A stretch of DNA of 64,000 bases from the NCBI GenBank assembly GCA_028825445.1, contig JAPKAD010000003.1, forward strand, positions 1 through 64,000, written 5' to 3'. Positions 5,796-17,472 of the stretch are shown piece by piece. The notes beneath the pieces are model-generated. The model ran no database searches. It was not told the DNA's origin and saw only the letters and a program-made list of their open reading frames with translations. The DNA comes from Octadecabacter sp. Its GTDB lineage: Bacteria > Pseudomonadota > Alphaproteobacteria > Rhodobacterales > Rhodobacteraceae. The translations under genes were made by a program, and so were the position numbers. Numbering within the stretch: position 1 is the stretch's first letter; the number at the start of each line of letters is the position of its first letter.

Positions 5796-6068
5796 TGGGG
5801 CTGCCTTGAATGATTCTGTAGAACATAGTTTCGCCATTCCCGCGCATGTGAGTCAACTGACACCTACTGGATATGCTAAAATCAACCGGTTTATCCACAA
5901 TATATTGTGATTTATGAGTTATTTTAGCCGTAAAAATATTTTAGTTTTAGTAAATTTTACTTTTTACAAATTTAACTAAAATTTTGACAGAAAAAAGAGG
6001 CACGTCGGAAATGGCCAAAACACGACGGAAATAGCCTTGACCAGTGCCCCAGCAGAGCGCACAACGTC

Positions 6069-6272
6069 CATGCATGGTTCATTGCGGTTCGGCTAAGCCG
6101 GAGCGTGGATCAAATGGGAATGTGGTGCAGGCTGATCCATATAGGAGGCCAAATGCCACAGCCGCCCCCGCGACTGTAAGCGGTGAGTGTTCGTCCACAT
6201 CCACTGAGGGAAACCTTGGGAAGGGGGACGAAGTTCACATTGACCCGCGAGCCAGGAGACCTGCCATGCGTG
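6069..6272 (+). promoter_or_regulatory. Cobalamin (adenosylcobalamin) riboswitch upstream of cbtB
   Basis: The aptamer landmarks occur in order: GGGAATGTGGTG, then CAGCCGCCCCCGCGACTGTAAG, then CCACTGAGGGAAACCTTGGGAAGG, then the B12 box GCGAGCCAGGAGACCTGCC (about 6248-6264). A closing P1 helix can be drawn between CATGCATGG (6069-6077) and CCATGCGTG (6264-6272). Beyond it a small hairpin (CCGTC at 6283-6287 with GACGG at 6294-6298) lies just before the Shine-Dalgarno sequence AAAGGAG of cbtB. A translational expression platform is therefore plausible, but that part is inference. Such switches turn genes off when the coenzyme is bound. Confidence 0.95.
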
Positions 6273-6315
6273 ATGAAACCGACCGTCGGGGATGACGGGC
6301 CAAAGGAGAATACAC

Positions 6316-7577: not shown

Positions 7578-8654
7578 ATGGCTGCCAAGATTTCTGCCAC
7601 TGTTGTTACTGGTTTTCTCGGAGCGGGTAAAACCACACTTATCCGGCACATGCTAGAAAACGCCAAGGGAAAACGCATCGCGCTAATCATCAATGAATTT
7701 GGTGATCTGGGCGTCGATGGTGATATCCTAAAGGGCTGTGGAATTGAGACATGTAGTGAAGATGATGTGGTTGAACTTTCCAACGGATGTATCTGTTGCA
7801 CTGTCGCTGATGAATTCATTCCAACAATGGAAATGCTGCTGGGTCGCGATAACCCGCCTGATCACATTGTTATTGAGACATCCGGACTGGCGCTGCCGCA
7901 ACCGCTTGTGCGCGCTTTCAACTGGCCAGGCATTTCGACCCGCGTGACGGTTGATGGCGTAATCACAGTGGTGGATGGCAAAGCTGTGTCTGACGGGCAG
8001 TTTGCCCACAATATCGCTGCCGTAGATGCCCAGCGTAAACTGGATGAGAATTTAGACCATGAAACGCCGCTATCAGAGCTATTTGAAGACCAGATTGCTT
8101 GCGCAGATATGATCGTCGTCAACAAGACAGATTTGCTAACAGACAGTGAAGCTGAACATCTGCGTGCTGTGCTGAAATCCGAAGCCCGCAAAGGTGTTCA
8201 GGTTGTAACTGCTACAATGGGCGCGTTACCAGTTGACGTCTTACTCGGCCAGGGTAGCGCCGCCGAGTGTGATTTGGATGCACGCCATGAGGTACATCAC
8301 CTTCATCATGACCACGACGATAATCATCATGAAGATTATAACGTCGGCCATGAACACGCTCATGGCCATGATGAGTTTGAAAGCTTTGTAGTCGAATTGG
8401 GCGAGATTGCCGATGCCAATGCATTCTCAGTAAAAGTTGCCGATGTGATCCGTGCCCATGATATTTTACGCCTCAAGGGGTTTGCGGCCGTTCAGGGCAA
8501 GCCCATGCGTCTGACGTTGCAAGCCGTTGGCCCACGTGTGGATACGTATTTTGACCGTCCATTTGGTACGGCTCCACGAATGACGCGGCTGGTAGTTATC
8601 GGTCAGACAGGGCTAAAACAGGCAGAAATCGAAGCAGCCCTAAAAGCAGGATAA
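7578..8654 (+). CDS. cobW: CobW, G3E-family GTPase (cobalamin biosynthesis metallochaperone)
   Basis: A 358-residue COG0523 protein. The P-loop GFLGAGKT is at residues 12-19, the metal-binding CICC motif at 71-74, the base-recognition NKTD at about 178-181, and a His/Asp-rich stretch (HHLHHDHDDNHHEDYN) at about 237-262, followed by the CobW C-terminal domain. CobW proteins use GTP binding to hold and deliver a metal, proposed to be cobalt for the CobN chelatase. The ATG at 7578 has AAGGAT upstream. The His-rich linker is typical of the family. It lies between cbtA and cobN, which supports the cobalt assignment over a zinc paralogue. Confidence 0.94.
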   Translation: MAAKISATVVTGFLGAGKTTLIRHMLENAKGKRIALIINEFGDLGVDGDILKGCGIETCSEDDVVELSNGCICCTVADEFIPTMEMLLGRDNPPDHIVIETSGLALPQPLVRAFNWPGISTRVTVDGVITVVDGKAVSDGQFAHNIAAVDAQRKLDENLDHETPLSELFEDQIACADMIVVNKTDLLTDSEAEHLRAVLKSEARKGVQVVTATMGALPVDVLLGQGSAAECDLDARHEVHHLHHDHDDNHHEDYNVGHEHAHGHDEFESFVVELGEIADANAFSVKVADVIRAHDILRLKGFAAVQGKPMRLTLQAVGPRVDTYFDRPFGTAPRMTRLVVIGQTGLKQAEIEAALKAG

Positions 8655-9301: not shown

Positions 9302-12300
9302 ATGCATTTGTTAGCAGCAACTCCGGGTGCGATTGATGACGGTAAAGAACCTGTTGATCTAGGACAAACGCCTGCAGATGTAATCGTGATTTCTGCAGCT
9401 GATACCGAGTTGGCGGCACTGTCTGCCGCGCGTGGTGAAATGATGAACCCGCCGACACTAAGGCTCGCCAGCATGATGCACCTGATCCATCCAATGTCTG
9501 TTGATCTGCATTTGGATACCTGCGCAACCAAATCGCGATTGGTGATTGCTCGCTGTCTGGGCGGTGTCGGTTATTGGAAATACGGCGTTGAACAATACGC
9601 CGCACGCCTTCGGGCTGCAGGCGTGCCTCTGGCGCTGCTGCCCGGCGATGATAAGCCCGACGAAGAACTACGTGCTATGTCAACGATAAAAGACGCAGAT
9701 TACGATGCACTTTGGTCCTATCTGGTCGAAGGTGGGCCAGAGAATTCAATTAATTTCTTAGCATTTGTGAAGGCTATGCTGGACGGCGGCGACGCGCCAG
9801 TATCTGCGCGCCCTTTACTTAAAGCAGGTGTGTATTGGCCAGGTACAGGTATTTCAGACTTGGCGAGCGCACAGATGGACTGGACGGATGGAGCCCCTGT
9901 GGTGCCTATCATTTTCTACCGTGCCTTGGTGCAGGGCGCAGGATTAAATCCAATCAACCGACTGGTAAAATCACTACTGCGTTTAGGGATGAACCCCCTA
10001 CCTGTCTTTGTAGCGTCACTAAAAGATCCATTGTCCCAAGCGACATTGGAACAACTGTTCACTGACACACCCCCTAGTGTGATTCTGAACTGCACAAGCT
10101 TTGCAGTTGGATCACCTCATGCTGGCGACAGCGCCAGCCTAAACCCATTAGCTGCCCCATTCACCAACCGCGCGCCAGTGTTTCAGGTTGTGCTGGCAGC
10201 ATCATCGGAGGCTGCTTGGTCTGAAAGTTTGAATGGCCTTTCCGCCCGCGACATTGCGATGAACGTTGCATTACCCGAGGTTGATGGCCGTGTGTTATCG
10301 CGCGCGATCAGTTTCAAAGGTGAGGCTTATTTTGACGCTGCCACAGAATGTCCTATAGCGACCTACCGTGCTGTTGGCGATCGCGTAACGTTTGTGGCGC
10401 ACCTTGCAATGAAGTGGGCCAAACTGAGGGTTACACCGCAAATAGATAAAAAAGTTGCTTTGGTACTGGCCAACTATCCTAATAAAGACGGGCGATTAGC
10501 CAATGGTGTTGGGCTTGATACGCCAGCTGCGACAGTTCATGTTCTGGGCTTGTTGGCTGCACAGGGCTACGACATCAACGCTCCCGCCGACGCACAGGTT
10601 TTAATGAAAACAATGATGGCAGGGCCAACAAATTGGCTAACAGATCGTGCAGATCGCAACGGTGGCGAAGTTCTGCCATTTGAGATCTACCAAAAATATT
10701 TTAATGCACTGCCTTGGGACGTCAAACAGCAGATTACAGACCGCTGGGGGGCATCAAAATCTGATCCATTTTTGCGAGACGACGGGTTCGCATTATCAAT
10801 CCACCGCTTTGGCAACGCCGTTGTCGCCTTGCAACCAGCGCGTGGATATAACATCGACCCAACCGATACCTATCATTCGCCCGATCTAGTACCACCGCAC
10901 AACTATCTTGCATTCTATTTTTGGCTACGACACCACTGGGAGGCGGATGCCATTGTGCACATGGGTAAGCATGGCAATCTTGAGTGGTTGCCCGGTAAAG
11001 CCACCGCGTTAAGTGAAGCTTGCTGGCCAGAGGTCGTGCTGGGGACCACTCCACATATCTATCCTTTTATCGTGAACGATCCAGGTGAAGGTACGCAAGC
11101 GAAACGCAGAGCGGCAGCCGTCATAATTGATCACCTAACACCACCGCTGACACGAGCTGAAAGCTACGGGCCATTGCGCGACCTCGAAGCTTTAATTGAT
11201 GAATACTACGAAGCTGCAGGGGTCGATCCACGCAGAATTGAGCTTCTGCGGAGTGAAATCTTGTCGCTTTCAGAGGTAACTGGACTTGGAAAAGACGCAG
11301 GCTTTGTGGGGGATGAAGACGGTGATCTAGCAAAACTGGATTCCTATTTGTGTGAATTGAAAGAAGCACAAATTCGCGATGGACTGCATATATTTGGGCA
11401 ATCACCTATCGGCACATTAGAACGGGATTTGGCGATTGCGTTGGTCCGCGTTCCACGGGGTGATGGGACAGGTCGTGATGCATCACTACTCCGAGCCTTG
11501 GCTGCGGATTTAGCGTTAGACTTTGACCCTCTAGATTGTGAAATGGCTACATCAACGGCTAACAAACCTTCCATTTTAGAGCGCTTAAGCGATGATACAT
11601 GGCGCACACAGGGCGATACAGTCGAGCGGTTAGAACTTTTTTCCAAAGCTCTATTGGATGGCACCTCAGAAGCTCCTGGGCCACAATCACAGGATGTCAT
11701 GGGCGAGATCAAGCAGGTAGTTTTAACTGTTGTACGGGCGTGTGGAGAACATGAAGGCGCAGGGCTCCTGAGCGCGCTTTCTGGACACTTTGTCGTACCA
11801 GCGCCATCAGGCGCACCGACCCGCGGACGTTTGGATGTGCTACCGACAGGTGGAAATTTTTATTCCGTTGATGCCCGCGCCGTTCCGACGCCAACAGCTT
11901 GGAAACTGGGCTGGAAATCTGCAAATATGTTGATTGAAAAACATCTGCAAGATCACGGTGAATGGCCCCGTTCAATGTTGGTGACTGCTTGGGGCACGGC
12001 AAACATGCGAACAGGTGGTGATGATATTGCGCAGGCTATGGCATTAATGGGCGTGAAACCGAAATGGGACGTAGCAAACCGACGGGTTACTGGATTTGAA
12101 GTTCTGCCTGAGGGCGTTTTGGGAAGACCACGTGTGGATGTAACTTTGCGGATAAGTGGATTTTTTCGCGATGCCTTTCCACAGTTGATAGCGCTTTTTG
12201 ATAGCGCTGCTAAGACAGTGCAAAAGCTTGATGAAAGTGCAGATCAAAACCCCGCGGCTGCGCGATTACGCGCGGGTGAGGCAAGCGCGCGGGTATATGG

Positions 12301-12979
12301 ATCAAAACCCGGTGCATATGGCGCAGGCCTTCAGGCAATGATTGATGAAAAATTGTGGGGCAACCGCGATGACCTTGCGGATGCCTACCTAGAGTGGGGC
12401 GGATACGCTTACGGTGCAGGTGCTGAAGGCGTCCAGGATCGTAGCGGCTTCGAAGCGCGCTTAGGTCAAGTTGAAGCGATCGTACAGAATCAAGACAACC
12501 GCGAACACGACGTATTGGACAGCGACGATTATTACCAATTTGAAGGTGGTGCAGCTGCGGCAGTTGCCAGCCTTCAAGGGCGCGAAAGACCAATTTATCA
12601 TAATGACCATTCGCGACCTGACCGCCCAGTCATCCGTACTTTGGAGGATGAAATCGGGCGCGTTGTGCGATCTCGCGTAGTAAACCCAAAATGGATCGAA
12701 GGCGTCAAACGACACGGCTATAAGGGTGCGTTTGAGATGGCTGCTACGGTAGATTATCTGTTCGCTTTTGCAGCGACCACGGGTGCAGTACGCAATCACC
12801 ATTTCGACCTCGTAGAAGAAGCATATCTGGCTGATGATCATACGCGCGAATTTATCGCTGAACATAACGCCCCCGCGCTGCGTGAGATGGCCCAGCGTTT
12901 GCAAGAAGCGATCGAACGCGGACTTTGGGTTCCAAAAAGCAATTCCGCACGCGCCAGAATTGGACAGCTGTCAAAGTAA
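9302..12979 (+). CDS. cobN: Cobaltochelatase subunit CobN
   Basis: A 1225-residue protein, the expected size for the large subunit of the aerobic ATP-dependent cobaltochelatase (CobN/magnesium chelatase H family). The family blocks HMGKHGNLEWLPGK (about 553-566) and VTAWGTANMRTGGDDI (about 895-910) are present. With CobS and CobT it inserts Co2+ into hydrogenobyrinic acid a,c-diamide in the cytoplasm. CobS and CobT are not in this window. The ATG at 9302 has AAAGG upstream. It follows cobW and the GNAT gene, interrupted by a small minus-strand gene, so it probably has its own promoter. Confidence 0.97.
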   Translation: MHLLAATPGAIDDGKEPVDLGQTPADVIVISAADTELAALSAARGEMMNPPTLRLASMMHLIHPMSVDLHLDTCATKSRLVIARCLGGVGYWKYGVEQYAARLRAAGVPLALLPGDDKPDEELRAMSTIKDADYDALWSYLVEGGPENSINFLAFVKAMLDGGDAPVSARPLLKAGVYWPGTGISDLASAQMDWTDGAPVVPIIFYRALVQGAGLNPINRLVKSLLRLGMNPLPVFVASLKDPLSQATLEQLFTDTPPSVILNCTSFAVGSPHAGDSASLNPLAAPFTNRAPVFQVVLAASSEAAWSESLNGLSARDIAMNVALPEVDGRVLSRAISFKGEAYFDAATECPIATYRAVGDRVTFVAHLAMKWAKLRVTPQIDKKVALVLANYPNKDGRLANGVGLDTPAATVHVLGLLAAQGYDINAPADAQVLMKTMMAGPTNWLTDRADRNGGEVLPFEIYQKYFNALPWDVKQQITDRWGASKSDPFLRDDGFALSIHRFGNAVVALQPARGYNIDPTDTYHSPDLVPPHNYLAFYFWLRHHWEADAIVHMGKHGNLEWLPGKATALSEACWPEVVLGTTPHIYPFIVNDPGEGTQAKRRAAAVIIDHLTPPLTRAESYGPLRDLEALIDEYYEAAGVDPRRIELLRSEILSLSEVTGLGKDAGFVGDEDGDLAKLDSYLCELKEAQIRDGLHIFGQSPIGTLERDLAIALVRVPRGDGTGRDASLLRALAADLALDFDPLDCEMATSTANKPSILERLSDDTWRTQGDTVERLELFSKALLDGTSEAPGPQSQDVMGEIKQVVLTVVRACGEHEGAGLLSALSGHFVVPAPSGAPTRGRLDVLPTGGNFYSVDARAVPTPTAWKLGWKSANMLIEKHLQDHGEWPRSMLVTAWGTANMRTGGDDIAQAMALMGVKPKWDVANRRVTGFEVLPEGVLGRPRVDVTLRISGFFRDAFPQLIALFDSAAKTVQKLDESADQNPAAARLRAGEASARVYGSKPGAYGAGLQAMIDEKLWGNRDDLADAYLEWGGYAYGAGAEGVQDRSGFEARLGQVEAIVQNQDNREHDVLDSDDYYQFEGGAAAAVASLQGRERPIYHNDHSRPDRPVIRTLEDEIGRVVRSRVVNPKWIEGVKRHGYKGAFEMAATVDYLFAFAATTGAVRNHHFDLVEEAYLADDHTREFIAEHNAPALREMAQRLQEAIERGLWVPKSNSARARIGQLSK

Positions 12980-13804
12980 AAACTGGAAGATTTCAGTGTA
13001 GTGGCAGTACTCAGTTTTAATATGACGGCAGGGACATTTGTCCTAACCGACCGTTATCATTGCTATGGACGACTGAATTGTGCTCCACCAAGTGATAATT
13101 TAACGAAAAGACGTATAATTTTGAAACTCAAGAGTGATGGGGGGAATTGTTGCAAGCTTTATGGCGCGTATGCGATTCCCTCATGCGAGTAATGCAAAAA
13201 CTCTTCGAACAAACTACTGTTCGTACGCTGCATCACGGACACAACTTCAAGGTCAGTCACTGCGAGTTTCATAAATATAACGGCGCAAAAACCCAATGCA
13301 TCCTTGCTAGGATGAGCCTGTTTGGAGAGATCCATGATTGGTGAAGTGAATGAGGCCAACCGTGTCAATCTTAACTACGAATTTGGGTATAATCCAATAA
13401 CTCTGCAGCTCCGTTAGATTTCAAGCATAAATATCTGAACATTTGATTGCGACCTATTTCAACATCTGTTCTCCCTTCCAGCTTGCGGGAAAGCATGTAA
13501 CCAGAAACCACAAACTCTGCTTGGTTGGTGCGAGAGTTAATGTTGGCGTGTATTCAGTGTTTGTACGGAGCAGTTCAAAGCTCATATTAAGAAGGTACAC
13601 TTAAACAAACGCCCCTATTCTATTGTGAGTATTTCGGTAAGTACGCTTTGAAGCGCAGGTGACAGTGTAAACTAGGCTGTTAGGCCGGACACCGCTTTAA
13701 TTGCCAGTAACACCTTGATCCACATTTTAACCCCCCTTTTTGTTTGTTAACATCTCTGTCAGGATATGGCTAAAAAAACCCTTTATTTTGCATGGGATAT
13801 AAAC
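12980..13804. other. 0.8 kb gap between cobN and cobO without a convincing gene
   Basis: Only short ORFs are seen, such as a 69-codon minus-strand ORF at 13159-13368 that I do not recognise and that lacks a clear ribosome binding site. No cobalamin riboswitch landmarks (B12 box, CCGCNACTGTAAG-like core) were found here. A C-run and T-run (ACCCCCCTTTTTG) lies about 65 bases before cobO. The stretch reads like eroded sequence. Confidence 0.4.
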
Positions 13805-14446
13805 ATGAGTGATAACAACGCCCCAAAGCCGGTGGACGCCACCGCAGACGCTGACCGCCACGCCATCAAGATGGCCAAAAAGAAGGTGGCACGTGATAAA
13901 ATAATGGCAACCAAAACTGACAAAAAGGGTCTGGTGATCGTTCATACCGGCAAAGGGAAGGGTAAGTCATCCGCTGCTTTTGGAATGATTTTTCGCCACA
14001 TTGCCCATGGCATGCCCTGCGCAGTTGTACAATTTATCAAGGGTGGCATGTCCACGGGTGAGCGCGATTTGATCTTGTCTAAATTTGCTGACGAATGTGA
14101 GTTCCACACGATGGGCGAAGGATTTACTTGGGAAACGCAGGATAAAACGCGTGATACTGAGATGGCGATGGCCGCATGGGAAAAGGCCAAGGAATTGATC
14201 CGCGACCCTACCAATTCGATGGTCTTGCTAGATGAGATCAACATCGCAATTCGCTATGATTATGTGCCGATAGCTGACGTAGTTACGTTTTTACGTGATG
14301 AAAAGCCGGAAATGACCCATGTGGTTTTAACGGGACGTAATGCACATGTTGATTTGATCGAAATTGCGGATCTAGTCACTGAAATGGAATTGGTCAAGCA
14401 CCCCTTCCGCAGCGGCATCAAGGCACAGATTGGCGTGGAGTTTTAA
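13805..14446 (+). CDS. cobO: Cob(I)yrinic acid a,c-diamide adenosyltransferase CobO
   Basis: A 213-residue CobA/CobO-type corrinoid adenosyltransferase. The N-terminus KKVARDKIMATKTDKKGL leads into the P-loop HTGKGKGKSSAAFG (about residues 47-60), and MVLLDEINIAIRYDYV is the conserved Walker-B-like block. It transfers the adenosyl group of ATP to Co(I) corrinoid. The ATG at 13805 matches the usual family start; the ORF track adds 13 residues. The upstream ribosome binding site is weak. The CorA-like gene begins three bases after its stop, so the two are probably cotranscribed. Confidence 0.95.
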   Translation: MSDNNAPKPVDATADADRHAIKMAKKKVARDKIMATKTDKKGLVIVHTGKGKGKSSAAFGMIFRHIAHGMPCAVVQFIKGGMSTGERDLILSKFADECEFHTMGEGFTWETQDKTRDTEMAMAAWEKAKELIRDPTNSMVLLDEINIAIRYDYVPIADVVTFLRDEKPEMTHVVLTGRNAHVDLIEIADLVTEMELVKHPFRSGIKAQIGVEF

Positions 14447-14448
14447 TC

Positions 14449-15396
14449 ATGTTACCAGTTCCCGTCTGTGCCTTTGACATCGCCCCAGATGGAGTAGCAA
14501 CTCAATGCGAGATAGATAACGCACAAAATGCCGGTTGGCGATGGTTGAACCTTGATCAGGCCGATCCCGCGCTTAGTGATTGGTTGAGCAAAAACGTCCC
14601 CGCTTCGGTTGCTGTGGCGTTGCAATTACCAAAAACGCGGCCACGATTTGATCTACTGACTGAAGGGGCGTTGATTAATTTGCGTGGTGTAAACCTCAAC
14701 ACAGGAGCACTGCCAGAAGACATGATCAGCCTACACATTTGGGCAACAGCAGATCTCGTTATCACAGTGCGCAAGCGCACGATCATGGCGTTGGAAGCCA
14801 CACGTCAAGAGATGGTTTTAGGCAAAGGTGCCAAGACCACGTCGGCTTTTTTAGCTGAGATAGCCGAGGAGCTGACACAGCGAATTGAGGCCGAATCCAT
14901 AATCTTGGAAGACCGCGTGGACGAACTTGAAGAAGCAATGATCTCAAAAAAATCGATAAACGCAGACGAAATGCTCAGTCTGCGCCAATCCTTGATAAAA
15001 ATGCGCCGTTTTATTGGCCCACAACGCAAAGCATTGCAAGATTTTAGTATCGCGAAAAATGGGTTGCCCGATGTCAAAACTGCGCCGCATTTGCTGGAAA
15101 CCGCCAACCGCGCATCGCGTACCGTTGAAGCACTAGACGCCGCACGGGACAGAATGGCCGTGATGCAGGAACATCTTGATATAGAAACTACAGCAGCGAT
15201 GGGGCGCAATGGTTATATCCTAAGCATTGTGGCTACGGTTTTCATGCCTCTAGGGTTTCTAACTGGGTTGTTCGGAGTAAATATCGATGGCATGCCAGGA
15301 CTGGACACGCCATGGGCTTTCAAAATGTTATGTGGAACTTCTGTAGCTTTTGGCCTACTTTTGTATTTTTTATATCGCACATTAAAATGGCTTTGA
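14449..15396 (+). CDS. CorA/ZntB-family divalent metal transporter
   Basis: A 315-residue protein with a long cytoplasmic domain and two C-terminal membrane helices (about 252-275 and 288-310). The loop between them carries GVNIDGMPG. The GVN replaces the GMN of classical CorA and points to the ZntB branch, which carries Zn2+ and other divalent metals. The stretch LEDRVDELEEAMISKKSINADE is the helical funnel part of the cytoplasmic domain. It starts three bases after cobO. Metal specificity cannot be read; the neighbourhood makes cobalt a possibility. Confidence 0.88.
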   Translation: MLPVPVCAFDIAPDGVATQCEIDNAQNAGWRWLNLDQADPALSDWLSKNVPASVAVALQLPKTRPRFDLLTEGALINLRGVNLNTGALPEDMISLHIWATADLVITVRKRTIMALEATRQEMVLGKGAKTTSAFLAEIAEELTQRIEAESIILEDRVDELEEAMISKKSINADEMLSLRQSLIKMRRFIGPQRKALQDFSIAKNGLPDVKTAPHLLETANRASRTVEALDAARDRMAVMQEHLDIETTAAMGRNGYILSIVATVFMPLGFLTGLFGVNIDGMPGLDTPWAFKMLCGTSVAFGLLLYFLYRTLKWL

Positions 15397-15406
15397 AGGG
15401 GATGAA

Positions 15407-15742
15407 ATGACACGTTTATTAACAGAATTTGGCATGGGAACATCACTGCGCCGTCAGGATTACACGCAGGCCGCAAAGCGAGCTTTGCAGGATGCGCTTT
15501 GGCACAATTCGATCAATCTGGCTGAGCTTTACGGCCAGCCCAAAGAGGCGATGCAGATCACGATTGAAATTGGTGTGCAGCAGCCCGACCGTGTGGATAC
15601 AGAAGCATTGCGCGACATCTTCCCGTATGGACAATTAACGTTTGTGGTCGTGCACGGTGGACTTGATGTACCGCGGCCCGACGGATTACCAACTGTAATC
15701 GCAAACGTGGCCTTGTCAGTTGCATTGGAATTACCAGCATGA
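15407..15742 (+). CDS. Lin0512 family protein, first of a tandem pair
   Basis: A 111-residue protein starting MTRLLTEFGMGTSLRRQDYT. The EFGMG, the DYTxAAxRAxxDALxHxSI block and the C-terminal VVVHGGLDVPRPDGLP match the Lin0512 family, which has no established function. GGGG at 15398-15401 lies upstream of the ATG. It follows the CorA-like gene after 10 bases and overlaps the next gene by ATGA. No catalytic motif is apparent. The two neighbours are similar along their whole length and could form a hetero-oligomer. Confidence 0.8.
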   Translation: MTRLLTEFGMGTSLRRQDYTQAAKRALQDALWHNSINLAELYGQPKEAMQITIEIGVQQPDRVDTEALRDIFPYGQLTFVVVHGGLDVPRPDGLPTVIANVALSVALELPA

Positions 15743-16092
15743 GTAATGATCAGAGGTTTATTGTCGAAATGGGCATGGGAAATGACCTGTACGGGCTGGA
15801 TTACACCAAAGCCGCAAAACGAGCGATTGAAGATGCGTTGCGTCATTCATCAATTCCGCTTTTTGAAGCCACAGGCCTGAGCCATGATATCATGCGCGTG
15901 CAAGTTACCGTTGGCGTTCAAGAGCCTGATGCGGTGGATTGCGCAGCTTTGATCAGCGGATTACCAAGAGGGCGCGCAACAGTCCAAGCAGTAAAGGGCG
16001 GGTTGAATGTAACCAACCCTAACACTGGAAACATCATAGTGATCGCATCAGCCGCTGTTGAGGCGTTCCTACCGCTGCAGCACAAGGGTTAA
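15739..16092 (+). CDS. Lin0512 family protein, second of a tandem pair
   Basis: A 117-residue paralogue of the preceding gene. It shares MGMGNDLYGLDYTKAAKRAI, the ALRHSSIPLFEATG helix, GVQEPDAVD and VKGGLNVTNPNTGNIIVIA at matching positions. The start codon overlaps the previous stop in an ATGA junction, suggesting coupled translation and roughly equal amounts. The function is unknown. Its place at the end of the cobO operon suggests a link to corrinoid or metal metabolism, which is inference only. Confidence 0.8.
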   Translation: MSNDQRFIVEMGMGNDLYGLDYTKAAKRAIEDALRHSSIPLFEATGLSHDIMRVQVTVGVQEPDAVDCAALISGLPRGRATVQAVKGGLNVTNPNTGNIIVIASAAVEAFLPLQHKG

Positions 16093-16149: not shown

Positions 16150-17472
16150 ATGCCAGATACAACCCGCATAAACCCGACAGTGCCCAATGACCTTGACAGC
16201 TTTTGGATGCCGTTCACGGCTAGCGAGATGTTCAAAGACAATCCACGCCTAATCTCAAAGGCCGAGGGCGTGCGTTACACCACAGTTGAAGGACATGAAT
16301 TGTTGGACGGTACTGGTGGGCTTTGGTGCTGTAATGCAGGGCACAATCATCCAACAATCACCAAGGCAATACAGGATCAAGCCGCAACTCTTGATTTTGT
16401 TCATAACTTCAATCAAGGCCATCCGTTGGCGTTTGAAGCGGCAGCGCGTGTCACAGCGCTTGCCCCCGGTTTTGATCATGTTTTTTTTACAAACTCAGGG
16501 TCCGAAGCAGTGGATACCGCACTGAAAATTGCGCTGGCCTTCCACAAAACACGTGGTGATGGTGATAGGCGCATTTTGGTGGGTCGTGAAAAAGCCTATC
16601 ATGGCATAAATTTTGGTGGACTTTCTGTTGGTGGGCTTGGGCTAAACAAGGGGCAATTTGGGACACTTTATCCTTCGACGGCGCACATGCGGCATACATG
16701 GCTGCCAGAAAATACTAATTCGCGCGGGCTACCAGAGCATGGTGCAGAGCTAGCAGATGATCTACAGCGCCTGTGCGAATTGCACGGAGGACACACAATT
16801 GCGGCGGTGATTGTTGAACCAGTTTCGGGTGCTGGTGGGGTGTTTCCACCGCCAGTTGGCTATCTGAAACGCCTACGTGAAATTTGTAATGCGCACGGTA
16901 TTTTGTTGATTTTTGATGAGGTAATTACTGGCTTTGGTCGTATGGGGACGCCATTCGCGTTTGAAGCATTTGGTGTACAGCCAGACCTTGTGACCTGCGC
17001 CAAGGGCATGACCAACGCTACTGTCCCCATGGGTGGCGTTTTGGCAACTGCAGAGGTGCGTGATGCGTTCCGAAACGGCCCCGCAAAGATGCCTGATCTT
17101 TTCCACGGTTACACCTATTCCGGCCATCCCCTGGCATCAGCGGCTTGCATTGCGACGTTAGATGCTTACCGCGACGACCAGATTTTTGAGAACTCGGCGG
17201 CGATGGCAGCTCCGTGGGAGGATATGCTGCATTCACTAACCGATATCCCTGCAATTATGGACGTGCGAAATTGCGGCATCTTGGGTGCAGTACATTTGAA
17301 ACAAGACGGAGCAGTCGGGGATGCTGGACGCGCAGCTTATGCTGGTTTGTGGGACGCAGGATTGATTGCACGGCCTGTGGGTGATGCGCTGTGTCTGTCG
17401 CCGCCATTGACGATTACCCAAGATCATGTGAATGAAATTGGCGCGAAATTGCGGGCACAATTGGCCGCTTAA
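16150..17472 (+). CDS. Class III omega-aminotransferase, beta-alanine:pyruvate type
   Basis: A 440-residue PLP enzyme. The N-terminus (DLDSFWMPFTASEMFKDNPR) and DGTGGLWCCNAGH resemble beta-alanine:pyruvate transaminases. TNSGSEAVDTALKIA is the phosphate-binding motif, FDEVITGFGRMG holds the cofactor-binding Asp, and CAKGMTNA (about residue 285) holds the Schiff-base Lys. The family moves an amino group from an omega-amino acid or amine to pyruvate. The start at 16150 has AAAGGAG upstream; the ORF track start at 16102 is 16 codons too early. Its stop overlaps that of the convergent TPP enzyme. The exact donor is uncertain. Confidence 0.9.
   Translation: MPDTTRINPTVPNDLDSFWMPFTASEMFKDNPRLISKAEGVRYTTVEGHELLDGTGGLWCCNAGHNHPTITKAIQDQAATLDFVHNFNQGHPLAFEAAARVTALAPGFDHVFFTNSGSEAVDTALKIALAFHKTRGDGDRRILVGREKAYHGINFGGLSVGGLGLNKGQFGTLYPSTAHMRHTWLPENTNSRGLPEHGAELADDLQRLCELHGGHTIAAVIVEPVSGAGGVFPPPVGYLKRLREICNAHGILLIFDEVITGFGRMGTPFAFEAFGVQPDLVTCAKGMTNATVPMGGVLATAEVRDAFRNGPAKMPDLFHGYTYSGHPLASAACIATLDAYRDDQIFENSAAMAAPWEDMLHSLTDIPAIMDVRNCGILGAVHLKQDGAVGDAGRAAYAGLWDAGLIARPVGDALCLSPPLTITQDHVNEIGAKLRAQLAA

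Follow-up and report, generated by a model that had tools for sequence, protein, structure and literature searches.

The window, a 64-kb stretch of DNA from a genome of 135 contigs whose gene content and relatives point to Rhodobacterales, carries a cobalamin gene island in which two tandem Lin0512 genes, designated A and B, follow cobO. The features of the island, in window positions, are listed below.

6060..6282, plus strand: cobalamin riboswitch ahead of cbtB/cbtA (RF00174, 105 bits)
7578..8654, plus strand: cobW (PF02492 and PF07683)
9302..12979, plus strand: cobN, cobaltochelatase large subunit (PF02514, 1212.6 bits)
13766..14446, plus strand: cobO, corrinoid adenosyltransferase (TIGR00708, 216.8 bits, above the cut-off of 167.75)
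14449..15396, plus strand: CorA-family transporter, ZntB-like with a GVN motif (PF01544, 188.7 bits)
15407..15742, plus strand: Lin0512 gene A, putative subunit A, 111 residues, with GMGTSLRRQD replacing GMGxDxHGxD (PF09585, 107.3 bits)
15739..15742, plus strand: ATGA overlap of the A stop and B start codons, seen in the sequence
15739..16092, plus strand: Lin0512 gene B, putative subunit B, 117 residues, with GMGNDLYGLD, in which D16 and G19 are kept (PF09585, 112.8 bits)
16150..17472, plus strand: class III aminotransferase, AptA-like (NF052567, 581.8 bits against a cut-off of 500)

The cobO, transporter and Lin0512 genes lie on one strand with spacings of 2 bases (cobO to transporter), 10 bases (transporter to A) and -4 bases (A to B), exactly as the original prediction described. 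The cobO product also matches the Pfam CobA_CobO_BtuR model (212.7 bits), and its homologues place the more likely start at 13805 (MSDNN...), with 13 extra codons in the listed frame. Upstream of cobO are the cobalamin riboswitch, cbtA, cobW and cobN. The interval between cobN and cobO (12980-13765) comprises approximately 790 bases without a credible gene; it may be a decayed gene, because the congener G216 has a 403-codon gene immediately 5' of cobO. The aminotransferase gene begins, at its corrected start of 16150, 57 bases 3' of B and is present in all four genomes of the genus and in no other genus. It is followed by genes for a TPP-dependent enzyme, on the opposite strand, and an FMN reductase.

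Both tandem genes encode members of the Lin0512 family, in agreement with the original prediction. The two products exceed the cut-offs of PF09585 (23.4) and TIGR02058 (58.0 for A and 57.1 for B against 56.85) and align end to end with 45% identity over 108 residues (E = 1e-28). The family loop GxGxDxHG is intact in neither protein: A reads GxGxSLRR, and B reads GxGNDLYG, in which the D and G are kept and the H is gone. Judged from their sequences, A and B are both divergent Lin0512 members. A search of the literature library found no paper naming Lin0512, TIGR02058 or PF09585. The original prediction describes the family as having no known function.

The predicted models of A and B (pLDDT 89.6 and 85.4, respectively) adopt the fold of PDB 3c8l, an FtsZ-like protein from Nostoc punctiforme. 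This structure is the sole solved relative and the best solved match of both models (TM 0.83 for A and 0.8 for B; Foldseek E 4.5e-10 and 3.3e-10, respectively) and is also detected by sequence (E 3.1e-9 for A and 2.6e-13 for B). It differs from A and B in being a single-gene cyanobacterial form with a complete loop (GMGIDQHG). The next Foldseek matches, which are the FtsZ C-terminal domain, AroH chorismate mutase, RidA (RidA/YjgF) and IspF, belong to the same alpha/beta class and are weak (E > 0.001, TM < ~0.5), with no sequence relation to A or B in the evidence. Several of these folds place their active sites between subunits.

Lin0512 was found in 128 of 246 sampled Rhodobacterales genomes, 127 of which carry exactly two copies. 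Ninety-nine pair neighbourhoods were read; both genes were present in 96, and the gene caller gave only one Lin0512 gene in L039, L227 and L230. A precedes B in all 96 fully read pairs, and the two frames overlap in 93 of them (4 bases in 60 pairs, 8 in 20 and 1 in 13), a tally that miscounts the window's own pair, for which the script picked a late B start. The tandem arrangement is far beyond chance. Outside Rhodobacterales, most genomes have one copy, and pairs occur in two other alphaproteobacterial families; among the genomes sampled, A/B duplicates were found only in Alphaproteobacteria. Single-copy hosts include Bacilli, Listeria, Enterococcus, Cyanobacteria, Bradyrhizobium and Azospirillum, as well as genomes labelled SAR202, Dehalococcoidia, Actinobacteria and others. 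The single-copy gene mostly stands alone, and no recurrent neighbour was seen across Bacilli, Listeria and Cyanobacteria. One SAR116 genome (G639, contigs C48 and C56; L146 and L269) has a single-type Lin0512 gene in addition to an A-B pair.

In a tree of 70 Lin0512 proteins, A and B form adjacent but separate lineages. Branch support is 100/97 for the B clade, 56/83 for the A clade and 91/85 for A and B together against the single-copy proteins. The simplest reading, which has moderate support, would be a single duplication in an alphaproteobacterial ancestor followed by vertical descent.

The two copies were compared at the loop that ends strand 1 in the predicted models. With window B as the numbering reference, D16, H18 and G19 are present in every one of 78 single-copy proteins. 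A has S, R and R, respectively, at these positions, and the S-L-R-R loop is invariant in all 96 A proteins compared. In B, D16 is retained in 97% and G19 in 100% of the proteins, and position 18 is Y in 58% and H in 42%. A-specific fixed residues are L17, W35, N37, A42 and K49, and B-specific fixed residues are N15, R77 and E108. Outgroup A proteins carry the intermediate loops DIRG, DIQG and SLRQ. This comparison shows that A lost the putative ancestral D-x-H-G loop and fixed S-L-R-R and that B kept most of it. The pair, which lies above both curated cut-offs and has the fold of the solved member, differs from the family at large in comprising two diverged copies instead of one, with D-x-H-G absent from A and H replaced by Y in over half of the B proteins.

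The transporter gene between cobO and the pair was originally assigned to the CorA/ZntB type and included in a candidate accessory module for corrinoid or divalent-metal handling. The assignment holds at the family level: the protein matches the CorA superfamily model PF01544 and contains GVN, and it is closest to ZntB, yet it reaches neither the ZntB nor the CorA equivalog cut-off (193 bits against 292 for the ZntB model NF007092). The place in a module does not hold. A CorA gene is near the pair at only 2 of 99 loci, those of the window genome and the congener G095, which amounts to two of the four genomes of this genus and no other genus; in the congeners G061 and G216, bluB occupies its place. 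A role as a module component is ruled out by this single-genus occurrence, and the CorA gene is a local insertion outside any conserved module.

Linkage of the pair to cobalamin genes is real but partial. The pair is cob-linked, directly 3' of cobO, at 33 of 96 loci, representing 11 of 33 Rhodobacterales genera, and stands elsewhere at the other 63. Of the 71 genomes in which cobO and the pair could both be placed, 25 have them no more than 15 kb apart, against an estimated chance expectation of <1% in a 4 Mb genome; the linkage is far above chance yet partial and dispensable. Two island types are observed, one arranged as cobN-cobO-x-A-B-(bluB or aptA) and the other as DUF1636-cobW-cobN divergent from cobO-A-B-cobQ, the latter often with overlapping frames. 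Both also occur closed up without the pair, as cobO-cobQ in L276, L286 and L291 and as cobO-bluB in L292 and L294, which belong to a genus whose other members carry the pair between cobO and bluB. The pair itself occupies unrelated sites, including trxA-hslV, ABC ATPase-tatAB, cobO-cobQ, cobN-cobO-bluB and others. The deepest branches of the pair's tree are not cob-linked, and the cob linkage needs approximately seven changes on this tree, in which many forks are unresolved. The aerobic cobalamin operons of Rhodobacterales (cobW, cobN, cobO, cobQ and bluB) thus contain or adjoin the pair in one-third of the genera, but operons and pair each also occur on their own, and neither is needed for the other.

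A cobO match is present in 116 of 128 carriers and 94 of 118 non-carriers (p = 0.019, without correction for relatedness). No cobO match was obtained in the remaining 12 carriers, one of which (G226) has a contig end beside the pair. The other 11 all have a PduO-type adenosyltransferase and B12-binding proteins, and in seven of them no CobB/CobQ-type amidotransferase was found either; these seven genomes keep the pair and still use B12. Among single-copy hosts, two Listeria genomes gave no match for a B12-binding domain, a PduO-type enzyme or CobB/CobQ, and Enterococcus nangangensis gave none for the first two. No cobalamin riboswitch lies directly 5' of the pair. The riboswitch of the window is approximately 9 kb upstream and is not the direct leader of the pair, and those of L043 and L035 face the divergent DUF1636-cobW-cobN operon; on these grounds, a cobalamin riboswitch was discarded as the pair's regulator. 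The outcome that the original prediction named as its refutation, with pairs lying mostly off the cobalamin genes or in hosts that lack corrinoid metabolism, is largely what was observed. The adjacency to cobO survives as a feature of 11 genera, and the proposed corrinoid or divalent-metal module is not supported, in view of the 63 loci elsewhere, the pair-free islands, the 11 carriers without cobO (seven of them also without CobB/CobQ), the single-copy relatives in Listeria and Enterococcus and the single-genus CorA gene.

Single-copy Lin0512 genes are found at several loci with thiamin-related genes. At L264 and L267, in genomes sampled from the same phylum as an actinobacterial genome, Lin0512 stands at the 3' end of a TPP-riboswitch operon of the thiZ-thiX-thiY type for uptake of the thiamin pyrimidine. 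The operon has genes for an ABC ATPase, a permease and a binding protein, and the ThiY and Lin0512 frames overlap by 4 bases. Among solved structures, the binding protein is closest to 3ix1, a formylaminopyrimidine-binding protein (E 2.8e-48). At L268, the same riboswitch and a permease gene lie upstream of Lin0512. The regions concerned are L264:7377-10414, L267:131-3175 and L268:4352-7515. In two Bradyrhizobiaceae loci (L113:7983-8998 and L114:7983-8998), a TenA-family gene, whose score of 126 bits is slightly below the curated cut-off of 130, lies 11 bases 3' of the single-copy Lin0512 gene.

Other neighbours were also recorded. In many Bradyrhizobium genomes, Lin0512 is followed after 4 bases by a gene for a GNAT acetyltransferase and preceded by one for an acetolactate-synthase-like TPP enzyme, as at L110:8010-9026. 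At L257:1688-5584, Lin0512 is flanked by the E1 and E2 genes of an operon for a 2-oxoacid dehydrogenase of the acetoin type. In two distant genomes, a fumarylacetoacetate-hydrolase family gene lies no more than ~60 bases 5' of Lin0512; it is divergent at L141:7120-8336 and co-directional at L153:6591-7757. Hydantoinase genes near Lin0512 in SAR202-type genomes and in g55 were noted as non-adjacent or inconsistent, and a Halobacillus transporter beside Lin0512 was rejected as ThiXYZ because its binding protein is closest to taurine/sulfonate types.

The Rhodobacterales pair shares neither this linkage to ThiXYZ-TenA salvage of the thiamin pyrimidine nor a co-occurrence with it. Across the 246 genomes, TenA shows no association with the pair (66 of 128 carriers and 51 of 118 non-carriers, p = 0.20), and ThiC shows a weakly negative one (15 of 128 and 27 of 118, p = 0.027, uncorrected); a thiamin co-occurrence in this order was rejected on these results. 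ThiC is present in only 42 of the 246 genomes, so the ThiC route to the thiamin pyrimidine seems closed to most of the Rhodobacterales sampled. No TPP riboswitch was found near Lin0512 in 18 other diverse loci, in the 64-kb window or in 8 Rhodobacterales loci. AmMP-using marine roseobacters have no clear YlmB deformylase and do not grow on FAMP (PMC10470507), which points to a missing step in that pathway. Nothing here ties the A-B pair to this AmMP/FAMP step, as the pair has no TenA association.

The combined observations are best accommodated by a reading in which A and B assemble, as its two subunits, into a small cytosolic hetero-oligomer whose genes travel as a portable unit and have repeatedly come to lie next to cofactor genes; as a whole, this reading is considered somewhat more probable than not. 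An ancestral single-gene Lin0512 protein with an FtsZ C-terminal/AroH/RidA-type fold would have been duplicated once in an alphaproteobacterial ancestor. B kept most of the strand-1 loop (D16 and G19, while roughly half of the B proteins have Y for H18), and A lost the loop and fixed S-L-R-R. To judge from its conservation, the loop may be catalytic. Because related folds place the active site between subunits, the active sites may be mixed, combining the ancestral acidic loop of B with the two arginines of A. The substrate would be a small metabolite, probably anionic. A cofactor-related metabolite is the best guess for its class, drawn weakly from the cobO/cobQ/bluB, thiXYZ and tenA neighbours. 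The overlap of the two frames may couple their translation. The pair would have no pathway fixed by its position; in part of Rhodobacterales, it would have come to lie directly 3' of cobO, where it is probably co-transcribed with the cob genes. A two-subunit complex, as the original prediction proposed, is the natural reading of the overlapping frames, the constant A-B order (96 of 96), the two copies in 127 of 128 carriers, the adjacent lineages, the complementary loop change and the many unrelated sites, although at the level of sequence the complex is a candidate.

That candidate status leaves some room for A and B as separate homo-oligomers with different substrates, still neighbours through operon inertia since they arose in tandem. 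Such duplicates are linked from the outset, their linkage could serve only to balance dosage, and the complete loss of the conserved loop in A would also fit a new function. Inertia alone poorly explains why the two genes have moved as a unit, with A always ahead of B, to numerous unrelated sites, and separate homo-oligomers are regarded as unlikely, if still a serious contender. A family-wide role in the metabolism of thiamin (vitamin B1), for instance in salvaging its pyrimidine half, with the alphaproteobacterial pair as one version of it, would account for the riboswitch operons of L264 and L267, the riboswitch and permease gene of L268, the 3ix1-like binding protein, the TenA neighbour in L113 and L114 and the TPP-dependent enzymes that flank Lin0512 in Bradyrhizobium and at L257. 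This role is thought improbable in view of the TenA and ThiC counts and the 18 loci without a TPP riboswitch, and the linkage may stem from a single lineage. An accessory factor of corrinoid metabolism, which might handle cob(I)alamin or a precursor between CobO and CobQ, would fit the position downstream of cobO in two island types, the 1- to 4-base overlaps frequent in cobO-A-B-cobQ, the BluB gene adjoining the pair in several genera and the higher frequency of cobO in carriers. The 63 loci elsewhere, the early branches without cob linkage, the islands that lack the pair (two of them inside a mostly pair-bearing genus), the seven carriers that lack both cobO and CobB/CobQ (though they keep a PduO-type enzyme and B12-binding proteins), the single-copy relatives in genomes without detected corrinoid proteins and the lack of a preceding cobalamin riboswitch make such a factor quite improbable.

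The preferred hetero-oligomer can also be set in a broader and speculative frame. Given the place of Lin0512 next to tenA and in a thiXYZ operon under a TPP riboswitch, the family could be an unrecognised group of vitamin-cofactor salvage enzymes, with an alphaproteobacterial A/B heteromer that has mixed sites and was partly drawn into the cobalamin operon; this extension is rated as rather unlikely. To our knowledge, the TPP-riboswitch operon is the first pathway lead for Lin0512.

The tandem pair inside the cob island is an accurate observation of an ordinary kind. Of greater interest are the complementary decay of the conserved loop in the two copies and the thiamin-riboswitch operon in which the single-copy gene lies. 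For annotation, the position beside cobO is no ground for calling the pair a cobalamin protein. Lin0512 is widespread in Bacilli, Cyanobacteria, Alphaproteobacteria and others and has one solved structure, and the complementary loss of a fully conserved loop in a split pair offers a concrete target for mutagenesis. The pair is probably a two-part protein of its own and not a dedicated B12 module.
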